A stretch of DNA of 57,844 nucleotides from Rhodothermus sp. (GTDB lineage Bacteria; Bacteroidota; Rhodothermia; Rhodothermales; Rhodothermaceae): NCBI GenBank assembly GCA_030950375.1, contig JAUZRN010000053.1:1-57844 (forward strand), in the 5' to 3' direction. Each line of letters begins with the position of its first letter. The stretch's first letter is position 1. Below are positions 25,718 to 32,625 of this stretch, piece by piece. Both the position numbers and the translations under genes were made by a program. The notes beneath the pieces are model-generated. The model was not told the origin of the DNA. It ran no database searches and saw only the letters and a program-made list of their open reading frames with translations.

Positions 25718-28042
25718 CTACGGAACCGTTGCTGAAAGGCGCGCGCGTAGCCGGTGGGCTGCCTCGACCATGTGGCGGAGGGCGGGCTCCGCTTCTTCCC
25801 AGCGCCGTGTCTTAAGGCCACAATCGGGATTGACCCAGAGGCGTTCGGCCGGAATCACCGCAAGGGCGCGTTCCAGCAGTGCCTCGATTTCTTCTACCGA
25901 AGGCACCCGAGGTGAATGGATGTCGTAAACGCCGGGGCCGACCGCATTCGGATACTGAAAACGGCGGAAGGCTTCCAGCAATGACATGCCCGATCGGGCC
26001 GCTTCGATAGAGATTACATCAGCATCGAGGGCGACGATGGCCTCCAGGATGTCCTCAAAATCGGCATAGCACATGTGGGTATGGATCTGCGTCTCGTCGC
26101 GTACGACGCTGGCCGTCAGGCGGAAGCATTCGACCGCCCAGTCCAGATAGGCCGGCCAATCACGGCGGCGTAGCGGTAGTCCTTCGCGCAGGGCTGGCTC
26201 GTCGATCTGGATGATAGCGATGCCGGCGGCTTCAAGGTCGGCCACTTCGTCGCGGAGCGCCAGCGCAAGCTGGCGACAGGTGTCGGCTCGGGGCTGATCG
26301 TCGCGCACGAACGACCACTGCAGGATGGTTACCGGACCGGTCAGAATGCCTTTGACCGGACGCGAGGTGCAACGCTGGGCATACGTGATCCACCGAACGG
26401 TCATGGGACCGCGCCGCGCCACATCGCCGTACAGGATGGGCGGACGCACGCAGCGGGTACCGTAGCTCTGTACCCAGCCGTTGCGGGTAACCAGAAAGCC
26501 CTGAAGCTGCTCAGCAAAATATTCGACCATGTCGGTGCGCTCGGGCTCACCGTGTACAAGTACGTCCAGCCCGATGGCTTCCTGACGGGCAATCGTTTCG
26601 GCAATGGTGGCTTCCAGAAACTGCTCATAGGCTTTACGAGAGAGGGCGCCCCGGCGCAGAGCCGCCCGTTTTTTGCGTAGCGTGTCGGTCTGCGGAAATG
26701 AACCAATCGTCGTGGTAGGTAGCAGCGGCAGGTTCAGCCGCTCCTGCTGCAGCGCATACCGTTCGGCAAAGGGACGCTTTCGACGCGCCATATCAGGCGA
26801 AAGGTGCGCGAGGCGCTGGCGCACAGCCGGGTCGATACGGCGTGGTGAGGTCAACCGCTCGGACCGGGCTTTGCGAGCAGCTTCGAGTCGATCGCGTACG
26901 ACTGACTCACCTTCGTTGACGAGACGCTTCAGCGTCGCCAGCTCTTCCAGCTTCTGACGCGCGAAGGCTAACCAGGGACGGATCTCCGGGTCGAGATTCG
27001 TTTCAGTTGCCAGATCAATTGGTACATGCAGGAGTGAGCACGAGGGGGCGATCCAGACCCGTTCCTGTCCAAGTGCGTCGATGGCTCTTCGTAGTACAGA
27101 AGCAGCTGCCTCGAGATCGGCGCGCCAGACATTGCGGCCATCAATGAGGCCCAGGGATAATATGCAGTCTTCAGGGAAATGTGCCAGGGCTGGCTCGAGC
27201 TGCTCGGGAGCCCGCACCAGGTCGAGGTGTATGGCGGCTACCGGCAGCTTGAGTGTCGGCAATAAGTTCTCTTCCAGGCTACCAAAGTATGTGGTCAGTA
27301 CCAGCGCTGGGTGCTCAGGCCGGCTCAGTGCAGTGTAGGCCTGCTGATAGGCCCGGTGTACTGTAGGCGGTAGATCAAGCACCAGACACGGCTCATCCAT
27401 CTGTACGTAGCGGGCACCGGCCACCTTCAGCCGACGCAACACCTCGGCATAGACGGGCAGCAGACGGTCGAGCAGACTCAGTGGATCAAAGTGGTCTGTC
27501 GCCGGCTTACCCAGCAGCAAAAACGAAACCGGTCCCAGCAGCACCGGTCGCGTTTCTATGCCCAAGGTTTTGGCCTCCAGGTATTCATCAATGGGTTTGG
27601 TCGTGGCGAGCCGGAAAGTCTGCTCGGGGTGGAATTCGGGCACGAGGTAGTGGTAGTTCGTATCGAACCACTTGGTCATCTCCAGGGGGGGCACGCCGGC
27701 CCTCTCCAGACCATGGGCTTCCAGATCCTTTTCCTGAACGCCCCGGGCCATTGCAAAGTACGTCGTCAGGTCAACGACTTCGCCCTGCCAGCCGAAGCGT
27801 TCGGGTACGGCCCCCACGAGTGCAATCGTATCGAGCACGTGGTCATAGAGCGAAAAGTCGTTTGATGGAATCTGGTCCAGTCCAGCTTCCTGTTGCCACT
27901 GCCAGTGGCGTGCACGTAGCTGTCGGGCTGTTGCCAGCAGTTCGTCTTCCGAGATGCGGCCAGCCCAGTATCCTTCGACGGCCCACTTCAATTCGCGGTT
28001 AGGTCCGATGCGGGGAAAACCCAGATTGGTTGCCTGGATCAT
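25718..28042 (-). CDS. metE: cobalamin-independent methionine synthase (774 aa)
   Basis: Transfers a methyl group from methyltetrahydrofolate triglutamate to homocysteine without B12. It has the usual two barrels: N-terminal TNLGFPRIGPNRELKWAVE (residues 4-22) and a C-terminal catalytic barrel with Zn ligands His656 and Cys658 (HTHMCYADF), Glu about 680 and Cys741 (NPDCGLKTR). It is complete. The ATG has no strong ribosome-binding site. It lies 73 bases after nrdB on the same strand, with no terminator or second riboswitch in the gap, so it is probably the third gene of the B12-controlled operon. Confidence 0.96.
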   Translation of the reverse strand: MIQATNLGFPRIGPNRELKWAVEGYWAGRISEDELLATARQLRARHWQWQQEAGLDQIPSNDFSLYDHVLDTIALVGAVPERFGWQGEVVDLTTYFAMARGVQEKDLEAHGLERAGVPPLEMTKWFDTNYHYLVPEFHPEQTFRLATTKPIDEYLEAKTLGIETRPVLLGPVSFLLLGKPATDHFDPLSLLDRLLPVYAEVLRRLKVAGARYVQMDEPCLVLDLPPTVHRAYQQAYTALSRPEHPALVLTTYFGSLEENLLPTLKLPVAAIHLDLVRAPEQLEPALAHFPEDCILSLGLIDGRNVWRADLEAAASVLRRAIDALGQERVWIAPSCSLLHVPIDLATETNLDPEIRPWLAFARQKLEELATLKRLVNEGESVVRDRLEAARKARSERLTSPRRIDPAVRQRLAHLSPDMARRKRPFAERYALQQERLNLPLLPTTTIGSFPQTDTLRKKRAALRRGALSRKAYEQFLEATIAETIARQEAIGLDVLVHGEPERTDMVEYFAEQLQGFLVTRNGWVQSYGTRCVRPPILYGDVARRGPMTVRWITYAQRCTSRPVKGILTGPVTILQWSFVRDDQPRADTCRQLALALRDEVADLEAAGIAIIQIDEPALREGLPLRRRDWPAYLDWAVECFRLTASVVRDETQIHTHMCYADFEDILEAIVALDADVISIEAARSGMSLLEAFRRFQYPNAVGPGVYDIHSPRVPSVEEIEALLERALAVIPAERLWVNPDCGLKTRRWEEAEPALRHMVEAAHRLRARLSATVP

Positions 28043-28115: not shown

Positions 28116-29156
28116 TCATTCATCCCACGACAGGGCAGCGGCCTGCTGGTATTCGGTAACCCGTGTTTCAAAAAAGTTCTTCTCTTTCAACAGGTCGATC
28201 GTCTCGCTCATCCAGGGGAACGGATTTTTCGAGCCGTAGCGGGCCTTCAGGCCAATGCGTTCCAGGCGTCGGTCGGCGATGTACTGCACATATTCTCGGA
28301 ACATGGAGGCCGTCAGGCCCAGTACGCCGCGTGGCAAGCAATCGTGGGCGTAGGCCACTTCCAGTTCGACCGCCTCTTCAATAAGCTGCTGCACTTCACG
28401 TTGAAAGTCGGGGGTCCTCAGCTCGGGATTCTCCGCCTTGATGCCGTTGATCAGGTCAATGCCAAAGTTCAGGTGGATCGTCTCGTCGCGCAGGATATAC
28501 TGGAATTGCTCCCCGATGCCGGTCATCTTGTTCTGGCGATGGAAGGAGAGGATCATGGCAAAGCCGCTGTAGAAGAAGATCCCCTCCATGATCACATAGT
28601 AGCCGATCAGGTTTTTCAGGAAGGCCCGGCCGCCTTCGACGGTGGCTGTGGTGAAATCGGGCCGCAGCACCTCGCGCGTCAGCTCCATTTCGAATTCGTC
28701 CTTACGGGCCACGGCCGGGATCTCGCGGTACATGTTGAACACTTCACCTTCGTCGAGCCCGAGGCTTTCAACGATGTACAGGAAGGCGTGGGTGTGGATA
28801 GCTTCTTCGAAGGCCTGACGCAGTAGATACTGGCGGCACTCCGGATTGGTAACATGACGGAAGATGGCCAGCACGATGTTGTTGCCCACCAGACTTTCAG
28901 CCGTGGCGAAAAAGCCCAGGTTACGCAGGATGACCAGGCGTTCGTCGTCGGTCAGTTTGTTGGAGCGCCACAGCTCGATGTCGCGGGCCATGGGGATTTC
29001 ACTGGGCATCCAGTGATTCTTACATCCGTTGAGATAATGCTCCCAGGCCCAGGCATACTTGATGGGCATGAGCTGGTTGACGTCCACCTCGTGGCAGTTA
29101 ATCAGGCGTTTGTCTTCGACGCGGATACGGCGCGATCCAAAGGCAGGAAGTTCCAT
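28116..29156 (-). CDS. nrdB: class Ic ribonucleotide reductase, small (R2) subunit (346 aa)
   Basis: Holds the metal cofactor that starts radical chemistry for deoxynucleotide synthesis. Carboxylate/His ligands read from sequence: Glu87 (FFATAES), Glu118 and His121 (EEAIHTHAF), Glu191 (IMEGIFF), Glu225 and His228 (RDETIHLN). The position four after His121, Tyr122 in E. coli, is Phe125, and the first ligand is Glu where E. coli has Asp84. Both are the marks of the chlamydial Mn(IV)/Fe class Ic enzyme, and the wider sequence is strongly chlamydia-like. It lies 54 bases after nrdA. Confidence 0.95.
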
Positions 29157-29210: not shown

Positions 29211-31991
29211 TTACTGACAGGCTTCGCAGCTTTCATCGTCCGGCGAGCAGGCAGGGCCGTCGCGGCGGACAACGATGTCGCTCGAAGGCGATCGACTTTT
29301 CATCCAGCGGGGTTGAATGCCACGTCGGTTGATGTCGAGCGTGGATTTTTCGATCTGCGTGGCCGCCAGCGCCCGCAGGTAATAGGTGGTTTTCAGGCCG
29401 AGTTGCCATGCCAGCTGGTACATTTCGCTGAGCTTGCGGCCGCTGGGCTCGGCCAGGTATAGATTCAGCGACTGGCTCTGGTCGATCCATTTCTGGCGCC
29501 GGGCGGCGCATTCAATGAGCCAGCGTGGATTGATTTCGAAGGCCGTGCGGTAGCGTTCTTTGAGCTCGGATGGGACGCGGTCGATTTCCTGTACCGAACC
29601 ATCGTAGTATTTCAGGTCGTCCAGCATCTCTTCGTCCCAGAGGCCACGCGCTTTGAGATCGCGTACCAGATAGGCATTGATCTGCGTAAACTCGCCGGAG
29701 AGATTGCTTTTGACGTAGAGATTTTTGTAGGTGGGTTCGATCGAAGGACTGACACCACAGATATTGGCGATGGTGGCGGTGGGGGCTATGGCCAGGACGT
29801 TCGCGTTGCGCATGCCCTGGCGGCGGATCTTTTCGCGCAGTGCATTCCAGTTGAGTCGGGCCGTACGGGGGACCGGGATCGGCTCGCCGCGTTCGGCTTC
29901 GAGCAGATCGAGCGTGTCGAGCGGTAGCAGGCCACGATCCCATTTGGAGCCTCTGAAGGTCGAGTACGCCCCGCGCTCGGCTGCCAGGTCAGAGGAAGCT
30001 TCATAGGCGCAATAGGCAATGAATTCCATGAGTTCGTCGGCCAGCTCCACGGCTGCTTCGCTGGCATAGGAGAGTCCCCGGCGGTAAAGCACATCCTGAA
30101 AGCCCATCAGACCCAGCCCGATCGGTCGGTGGCGCAGATTGGCGGTGCGCGCTTCCGGGATCAGGTAGAAGTTGAGGTCGATCACATTGTCGAGCATGCG
30201 GACGGCCGTGCGGATCGTTTCGCGCAGCTTTTCCCGATCCAGTTCGCCCTGCTCGTTTACATGCGCCACCAGGTTGATGGAGCCCAGATTGCAGACGGCT
30301 ACTTCTTCGGGCGAGGTATTCAGGGTGATTTCGGTGCAGAGATTCGACGAGTGAACGACGCCTACGTGGTCCTGAGGCGATCGGATATTGCAGGGATCTT
30401 TGAAGGTGAGCCAGGGATGGCCGGTTTCAAAGAGCATGGAAAGCATTTTGCGCCAGAGGGCGAGGGCATCGACCCGACGCCAGTTGCGGATGCGTCCGGC
30501 TTCGGCCTCGCGTTCGTAGTGCTCGTAGCGTTCGCGGAAGGCGCGGCCGTAGAGGTCGTGCAGGTCGGGTACTTCGTCCGGAGAGAAGAGGGTCCAGTGT
30601 TTGCGCTGGCGCACGCGTTGCAGGAACAGGTCAGGGATCCAGCAGGCCGTATTCATGTCGTGCGTGCGGCGACGCTCGTCGCCCGTGTTGCGGCGCAGTT
30701 CCAGAAACTCTTCAATGTCCAGGTGCCACACTTCCAGATAGGCACATACGGCGCCTTTGCGTTTGCCGCCCTGGTTGACGGCAACGGCCGTATCGTTGAC
30801 GATTTTCAGGAAGGGGATGACGCCCTGGCTGCGGCCGTTAGTGCCCCGGATATGGGCACCCAGGGCGCGGACGGGTGTCCAGTCGTTGCCCAGGCCACCG
30901 GCCCATTTCGAGAGCAGTGCGTTATCTCGAATGGCTTTGAAGATGGCGCCCAGGTCGTCCTGCACGGTGGTCAGGTAGCAGGAGGAGAGCTGCGGGTGCG
31001 GCGTGCCTGCATTGAAAAGCGTAGGGGTGGAATTCATGAAGCGGAAGCTGGAAAGTAGCTCGTAAAACTGGATCGCCCGGTGGGTGGGATCGCTTTCGTT
31101 GAGGGCCAGTCCCATGGCCACGCGCATCCAGAGGTACTGGGGCAGTTCGAGACGGCGGCCATCGGGGTCGTGCAGCAGGTATCGATCGTAGAGCGTCTGC
31201 AGTCCAAGGTAGGTAAACCGGCGGTCGCGTTCAGGTCGGAGGGCCTGAGCCAGGCGTTCGAGGTCGAAGGTGTGGAGCAGACGCTCGTCGAGTCGTTCCA
31301 GGCGCACGCCGTGCATCAGATAGGCGTAAAAGCCGGTGCGGCAGGCTTCGGCCTGTTCATCGGGGGGTACCGGGCGTCCGAACACTTCCCGGTAGAGGGC
31401 ATCCAGCAGGAGGCGGGCGGCCACAAACGTGTAGTTGGGTTCCCGTTCAATGTGGGTACGAGCTGCCAGGATCAGTGCCCGGTCCAGCTCATCTTCGGAG
31501 ATGCCTGGATAGACCGTGCGCAACAGCTCTTCCTGAATGCCGTCCGGGTCGACGTCCTCCAGTTCGGCACAGGCCGCTTCGATGCGGGTGCGGAGGGCCT
31601 CATGTGGGAAAGGGGCCTCGGTGCCGTCAGCGCGGCGGTAGGTGAGTTGCTGGCGGCGGCGTGCTTCGGCCCGGGCTTCCCGGTAGAGAATGTAGCGGCG
31701 GGCAACGGCGTAGCGTCCGGCCCGCATGAGCGTGCGCTCCACTTCGTCCTGGATTGCTTCCACGGATACTTCCGGGCGGTGCTGGCACCAGCGTACAACA
31801 GCGCCCGTGAGCGCTTCAATCTCTTCGGCCAGTTCAGCGGTGAGCGGCGTATCGGTTGACAGGTCATATGTGGCGCGGAAGGCTTTTTCAAGGGCGCGCC
31901 GGATGCGGTCGGCATCGAACGGTACGCGTCGGCCATCGCGTTTGATGACCGTGGGTAGCATGTCGGTCGTGAACATCTGCAGGGTGGCCAT
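29211..31991 (-). CDS. nrdA: class I ribonucleotide reductase, large (R1) subunit (926 aa)
   Basis: Reduces ribonucleoside diphosphates with NrdB. An ATP-cone begins at residue about 12 ([20 protein letters not shown]), and a second cone-like region (about 115-205) may be present, as in chlamydial enzymes. The catalytic domain has [21 protein letters not shown] with the thiyl Cys, VCNLGSINL, the YYLRAL tyrosine dyad, and a C-terminal ESCEACQ redox pair that is reduced by thioredoxin-like proteins. The frame is open to 32108, but ATG 31991 follows GAGGGACC and begins the cone; upstream codons belong to the riboswitch leader. Confidence 0.95.
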
Positions 31992-32133
31992 GGTGGTCCC
32001 TCGGGTTTGGTGAAACATCCGGAGTCGAGGTCCCCCGCGGCCAGAAGGTGGAGAAGGGCAGCAGCAGCCGATGCGAACAGCGACGCGGGTCGCCTGAAAG
32101 GTCAGCACCTGAACGCAACAGCCACTTGCAGCC

Positions 32134-32194
32134 GATCACCACCCTGTGACGCGCAGGGTGTGCCGGATCACCCGACAGGGCGCCGGCCGTGATC
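32134..32194 (-). promoter_or_regulatory. putative expression platform of the cobalamin riboswitch
   Basis: On the minus strand GATCAC (32194-32189), directly 3' of the aptamer, can pair with either of two downstream GTGATC copies (32171-32166 or 32139-32134). Between the latter two is a perfect 7-bp hairpin CACCCTG/CAGGGTG (32140-32160). The two pairings exclude each other. No U-run follows, so simple intrinsic termination is not obvious; the nrdA ATG is about 140 bases further on. Confidence 0.5.
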
Positions 32195-32195
32195 G

Positions 32196-32322
32196 CACTT
32201 CCAGGCGGGCATTCGGGCTTTTACCGTTGCGCGACAGCGCCGGAATTCCACCGGCTTCCCCCGTGACGCCGATCCCAAATCGGACCGGCCGCCGTGCCAC
32301 GACAGCACAGCCCCGGAAGTGG
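32196..32322 (-). promoter_or_regulatory. cobalamin (B12) riboswitch aptamer upstream of nrdA
   Basis: The minus strand contains the diagnostic RF00174-type core: GGGGGAAGCCGGTGGAATTC, then CCGGCGCTGTCGCGCAACGG, then TAAAAGCCCGAATGCCCGCC (B12 box). The ends close in a perfect 7-bp P1, CACTTCC (32321-32315) with GGAAGTG (32202-32196). The stretch between GCAACGGTAA and the B12 box is very short, so the peripheral P7-P12 arms look largely absent: a compact variant. Binding of B12 is expected to lower expression of the nrdA-nrdB-metE transcript. Confidence 0.9.
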
Positions 32323-32339
32323 CAGGGCCTGTGGCGGCA

Positions 32340-32368
32340 AGTATAGCATGCCTGATCCGCGAGGACAA
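32340..32368 (-). promoter_or_regulatory. sigma70-like promoter of the nrdA-nrdB-metE transcript
   Basis: The minus strand reads TTGTCC (32368-32363), a 17-base spacer and TATACT (32345-32340); the downstream bases make TATACTTG, also close to the Bacteroidota TAnnTTTG. Transcription should start near 32333, about ten bases before the riboswitch P1. Confidence 0.7.
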
Positions 32369-32396
32369 GGGGTGTGGAAAAAATCTGGATATTATT

Positions 32397-32472
32397 TCCG
32401 TTATTCGTCATCAACAAAGGCAATTTCTACAGATTGTGTGTGGGATGTTAAAGTCTGGTATCCGTTATTCGT
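32397..32472. repeat. 12-bp direct repeat pair upstream of the nrd promoter
   Basis: TCCGTTATTCGT occurs at 32397-32408 and again, identically, at 32461-32472. The 64-base spacing is about six helical turns, which would put both copies on one face of the DNA. TCTGG precedes each copy. They are candidate operators for the nrd promoter or for the divergent YceI operon. Confidence 0.6.
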
Positions 32473-32625
32473 GATTATGTAGGCATCTCCCCGACAGGGT
32501 GTTGAGAAAACGCCGGGCAGCGGGTAGCAGCTCCTGCTTACAGTTGCGGTCAGGCTTTGCTCTCATGCTGCAGGCGGTCGATCTCGTTGCTTAAAGGTGC
32601 ACCCCAGAGGCATTGGAGGGGAACT

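Follow-up and report, generated by a model that had tools for sequence, protein, structure and literature searches.

How might a compact cobalamin aptamer in the leader of a ribonucleotide reductase gene of Rhodothermus sp. control the genes behind it? The window, the whole 57,844-nt stretch of DNA that was analysed, carries this aptamer on its minus strand, as it does every window feature described below. The answer we consider probable is that the element is a compact AdoCbl-II riboswitch that turns off nrdA-nrdB-metE with B12, acting through its P13 hairpin and a second hairpin that masks the ribosome site.

Aptamer class and gene setting

The aptamer extends from P1 to P1 over 32196-32321, with P1 formed by 32321-32312 and 32205-32196 and re-paired in L021. 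Its core (32279-32199) matches the covariance model of AdoCbl-II (RF01689) at 47.4 bits, against a gathering cut-off of 36.5 bits, and fills all 81 of the 81 model positions; it is the sole RF01689 match in a genome-wide search. The RF00174 model also matches, at 32304-32187, with 39.6 bits. The P7-P12 arms and the extended class I B12-box region are absent, and the aptamer closes directly after P6. This bears out the preliminary description, which had called the aptamer compact and short of most of its P7-P12 arms. Sequence places the aptamer in AdoCbl-II (class II), and its logic follows that of cobalamin riboswitches already known. Across the order Rhodothermales, 29 of 30 matches are compact aptamers, the exception being L029, and 27 order relatives were tabulated automatically for comparison of the riboswitch module. 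The loci inspected in the wider phylum include no further compact aptamers, matches outside the order being class I. The genome's only other cobalamin riboswitch (L002; G000:C31:26847-27098, minus strand) is a class I element matching RF00174 at 94.6 bits; it has P7-P12 arms, unlike the aptamer of the nrdA leader, and precedes a putative TonB-dependent receptor gene.

Downstream of the riboswitch and on the same strand lie nrdA, encoding class I ribonucleotide reductase (RNR) alpha (29211-31991, ATG at 31991; NF005544, 1454.9 bits; TIGR02506, 734.6 bits), then nrdB, encoding the beta subunit (28116-29156; NF005550, 630.8 bits), then metE, encoding B12-independent methionine synthase (25718-28042; TIGR01371, 1107 bits). 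Related loci place the window's genome in Rhodothermus. The riboswitch sits ~200 nt upstream of nrdA in all seven Rhodothermus genomes, each of which also encodes the B12-dependent NrdJ and MetH, and the three genes also occur together in one named relative (L033). B12 commonly represses B12-independent isozymes, and the position of such isozymes behind a B12 sensor fits this logic. Other B12 riboswitches stand before B12-independent class I nrd or metE genes in genomes that likewise have NrdJ and MetH, whereas Rhodothermus has both isozymes in one colinear cluster behind a single riboswitch. A promoter-like site, TTGTCC-17-TATACT (32340-32368; 9 of 12 matches, with 0.2 expected in shuffles), keeps its TATACT in six of the seven Rhodothermus genomes and suggests a transcription start near 32333.

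Several further observations concern the reductase genes. An N-terminal extension of NrdA from GTG 32108 was rejected because different genomes carry different indels between this codon and the ATG, and the frame is lost. Class I NrdA (29211-31991) barely passes the NrdJ model TIGR02504 (406.4 against a cut-off of 399.95, compared with 734.6 for TIGR02506), a possible source of wrong annotation. The R2 encoded at 28116-29156 we take to resemble the Chlamydia-type R2c, and its radical site may carry Phe. An RNR large-subunit gene at G000:C50:2614-5607 forms a 1371-aa frame in which an in-frame insert splits the family match, and the large-subunit genes in L022 and L027 carry in-frame inserts that begin like inteins.

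A closing helix and the P13 junction

GATCAC (32194-32189) lies directly 3' of P1, followed by two GTGATC copies, near (32171-32166) and distal (32139-32134), which flank a 7-bp hairpin and are each complementary to GATCAC at 6/6 positions. The preliminary description had recorded this arrangement, which is indeed present, and had read it as the likely switch, with GATCAC alternating between the two copies around the hairpin. The window does hold both perfect partners, but the near copy is found only in the window's own genome (one of seven Rhodothermus), and the best near 6-mer in the others pairs with only 4-5 of the 6 positions of GATCAC. Forcing the near pairing yields -28.8 instead of -38.0 kcal/mol, 9.2 kcal/mol worse, and this pairing would break a variable hairpin whose stem covaries. 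Competition between the copies is rejected on conservation and energy and, as a reading of this leader, is highly improbable. Comparison of the copies in relatives, which the preliminary description had proposed as a check, separates them: in the genus alignment GATCAC and its distal partner do not vary in any of the 7/7 Rhodothermus genomes, and they covary beyond the genus, whereas the near copy fails conservation, the outcome that the preliminary description had named as refuting its switch. The 7-bp hairpin and the distal GTGATC also exceed chance expectation; the near GTGATC does not. By these comparisons the near GTGATC is a chance copy that would play no part, and it shows why repeats seen in one genome need checking in relatives.

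GATCAC and the distal GTGATC belong to a helix contiguous with P1, composed of a 5' strand CGATCAC (32189-32195), invariant in all seven genomes of the genus, and a 3' strand GTGATCG (32133-32139), whose GTGATC is likewise conserved in 7/7. Both strands covary in the order, where the variants include GATCAC/GTGGTC, GACCAC/GTGGTC, GATCGT/ATGATC and others; the third position holds most of this helix's variation. Taken together with P13, five of eight pairs show compensatory change among 14 distinct rows, with a covariation of 0.488 compared with 0.255 when shuffled; none of 500 shuffles scored as high, and sliding the registers of the two helices gave at most 0.125. The stems were selected by pairing ability, which makes the 100% pairing of P13 partly a product of construction, but not the compensatory changes. 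On this covariation, GATCAC and the distal GTGATC form a helix stacked on P1 that closes a three-way junction, a structural clamp and not a switch.

Two hairpins lie inside the junction, one variable and the other the 7-bp hairpin. The variable hairpin (32162-32187) pairs GCCGG (32187-32183) with CCGGC (32166-32162) and carries the near GTGATC in its tip; its stem is kept by compensation, as CCAGC/GCTGG in L016 and CCCGC/GCGGG in L021, and its tip differs in sequence and length within the genus. The second hairpin (32140-32160) is a perfect 7-bp stem, CACCCTG/CAGGGTG, around the loop CGCGTCA. Its CGCG (32153-32150) is complementary to the CGCG (32233-32230) of the L5 loop UCGCG (32230-32234), and both are conserved in the tabulated relatives, the L5 CGCG being invariant in all 27. 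Because the loop is complementary to L5, the 7-bp hairpin is identified as P13 and its loop as L13, an assignment that the preliminary description missed, together with P13's downstream partner. The complementarity predicts an L5-L13 kissing loop of the usual cobalamin-riboswitch type, known from other members of this group (PMC10653944; PMC10907184).

The same plan recurs through the order: P1, the closing helix, a hairpin unrelated in sequence, and then one whose loop is CGCG[TC] (27 tabulated). P13 with a CGCGY loop is recovered in 15 of 16 representatives, with a mean of 0.69 and a maximum of 4 in shuffles. In class I relatives L5 is UCCCG, and in L094 it is matched by a downstream CGGGA, so the changed middle L5/L13 pair is compensated at lineage level. 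Comparison with relatives shows the aptamer, the closing helix, the variable hairpin, P13 and the L5/L13 match.

The module shares with AdoCbl-II riboswitches (RF01689) such as env8HyCbl the compact four-way-junction aptamer lacking P7-P12, the L5-L13 kissing loop (predicted here) and the location of P13 after P1. It differs in placing P13 within a three-way junction together with a variable hairpin, in a closing helix contiguous with P1, in an L13 free of a ribosome site and in an L5/L13 match of CGCG/CGCG. A simple P13 hairpin whose loop contains the ribosome site is enough in env8 (PMC10907184), and the Rhodothermus output could likewise come from direct docking alone, the downstream module being mainly structural and P13 having no alternative partner. 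This is improbable: L13/P13 here contains no Shine-Dalgarno, and the ~140 nt between the two call for a relay; moreover, relatives also have segments complementary to P13 at their regulatory hairpin. Class II cobalamin riboswitches have so far provided few known examples of expression platforms.

P13 and a predicted ribosome-site hairpin

Downstream of the P13 module and ahead of nrdA, a long central hairpin (approximately 32057-32133), predicted in all seven Rhodothermus genomes, leads to a predicted masking hairpin (31985-32044) that pairs the Shine-Dalgarno CGAGG (32003-31999) with CCUCG (32030-32026) and covers the AUG at 31991. Ribosome-site masking, one of the outputs the preliminary description had listed, gains support from this hairpin and is the likely output. 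The 5' arm of the hairpin is overlapped by a P13-complementary segment, CCACCUUCUGGCCGCGGGG (32033-32051), with which nearly all of P13 (32158-32139) can pair across 32051-32033 with one mismatch and one bulge. The full duplex reaches -31.4 kcal/mol, compared with -24.1 ± 2.7 kcal/mol for shuffles, and the best downstream place for the full P13 is identical in every genome tested. The significance of this match is modest, with 5-8 of 500 shuffles as good in four genomes sharing the sequence (~1-2%) and 42 of 500 in L021 (8%). The 3' strand of P13 together with L13, taken alone, matches the downstream Rhodothermus leader no better than shuffles do, and the P13/CCACCUUCUGGCCGCGGGG pairing yields no covariation within Rhodothermus, where both arms barely vary.

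At 37 °C, folds forced into the anti-P13 pairing differ from the best fold by 0-2 kcal/mol, as a switch needs. They open or shift the pairing around the AUG in L004, L005, L006, L008 and L021; predicted apo folds often retain some of the CCUCG/CGAGG masking helix, which in L001 stays intact beside a short anti-P13 pairing. All energies refer to 37 °C or to an extrapolation to 65 °C; neither the kissing loop nor co-transcriptional folding enters into them. The expectation of the preliminary description that the switch lies just downstream of the aptamer is supported, with P13 and CCACCUUCUGGCCGCGGGG as the favoured elements, and competition for P13 is likelier, being better supported than competition between the GTGATC copies.

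We infer that the ligand stabilises P13, that P13 and its downstream partner are mutually exclusive and that the output acts at translation. Bound B12 would strengthen the L5-L13 kissing loop and hence P13; with P13 locked, CCACCUUCUGGCCGCGGGG would be free and the hairpin would hide the nrdA Shine-Dalgarno and AUG, and the masked ribosome site would keep the B12-independent isozymes off. With no ligand, P13 would open and pair lengthwise with CCACCUUCUGGCCGCGGGG, a pairing that would disrupt the masking hairpin at its base, so that translation could start.

An intrinsic terminator was rejected as the output in Rhodothermus: 31900-32600 holds no terminator-like site, in line with the preliminary description, which had seen no U-run after the hairpin region, and none was found in the leaders of the genus. 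Its absence would also suit Rho-dependent control, in which the C-rich, partly unpaired GCUGCUGCUGCCCUUCUCCACCUUCUGG would serve as a Rho entry site in the B12-bound state and P13 would pair with it in the absence of B12, allowing transcription to continue. GCUGCUGCUGCCCUUCUCCACCUUCUGG is pyrimidine-rich, conserved in Rhodothermus and the part that the anti-P13 pairing would cover. The predicted masking hairpin beside the AUG is, however, a simpler output, and the sister family has intrinsic terminators at the corresponding place; Rho-dependent control is accordingly unlikely, though less so than direct docking.

The sister family and known expression platforms

In the sister family of Rhodothermales (f12), 9 of 20 leaders satisfy a rule for intrinsic terminators, a stem plus five or more T, at 80 to 154 nt after the module; some further leaders show a comparable hairpin whose T-run is weaker. 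The 5' arm of this downstream hairpin, GCCUUCGUGACGCGU, is complementary to L13 and the 3' side of P13. Such a partner is found in 12 of the 20 at 0-42 of 200 shuffles, nine of these at no more than 5 of 200; the match in the remaining sequences is not above shuffles.

Mutations in the P. megaterium metE riboswitch have shown an antiterminator logic running from P13 to a downstream arm (PMC10653944). There, as proposed here, P13 gives up its own stem when no ligand is bound, and its 3' side pairs with the 5' arm of a hairpin further downstream. The terminators of the sister family fit this scheme. The P. megaterium element differs in its class I aptamer and intrinsic terminator, whereas in Rhodothermus the downstream hairpin is predicted to mask the ribosome site and can pair with almost the whole of P13.

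At several sister loci (e.g., L013, L017, L018, L023 and L025), the terminator is enclosed by a helix whose 3' strand stops just short of the start codon, by a few bases. The pairs GUGCUCC/GGAGCAC, GUGCCUU/AAGGCAC and GCGCUUCG/CGAAGCGC seem to covary. Through this enclosing helix the sister family may combine termination with ribosome-site masking.

In L018, L111 (G064:C8:15500-20000) and L113, an AdoCbl-II riboswitch stands before the gene of an RNR large subunit that is class II-like (NrdJ/Z). The sister-family large subunit has a GVTTYR motif and a Cys-rich C-terminus, and the L018 riboswitch before it has an intrinsic terminator. A search with one R2 query found no R2 in G064, G063, G072 or G051. 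A B12 riboswitch may therefore control a B12-dependent RNR in the sister family, where R2 was not found.

Tentatively, and with somewhat less confidence than doubt, we propose that a single P13 junction module serves two outputs in Rhodothermales, intrinsic termination and ribosome-site masking, each through a segment that would compete with L5 and the P13 stem for L13/P13, and that sister-family control of the class II-like RNR (no R2 found) would place a B12-dependent enzyme under B12 control. A covarying P13 junction is shared by two families within the order; some leaders have a terminator, others a predicted masked ribosome site, and such natural pairs suit tests, in thermophiles, of the transcriptional-to-translational rewiring of one aptamer and P13. 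Within the open-licence literature searched, we found no paper on this element in Rhodothermus or Salinibacter, nor a description of a P1-contiguous P13 three-way junction or of an output change between families. At the sister locus L025, a short ATP-cone-like frame with 49% to NrdA residues 15-96 lies after position 1830, downstream of the riboswitch and immediately ahead of metE.
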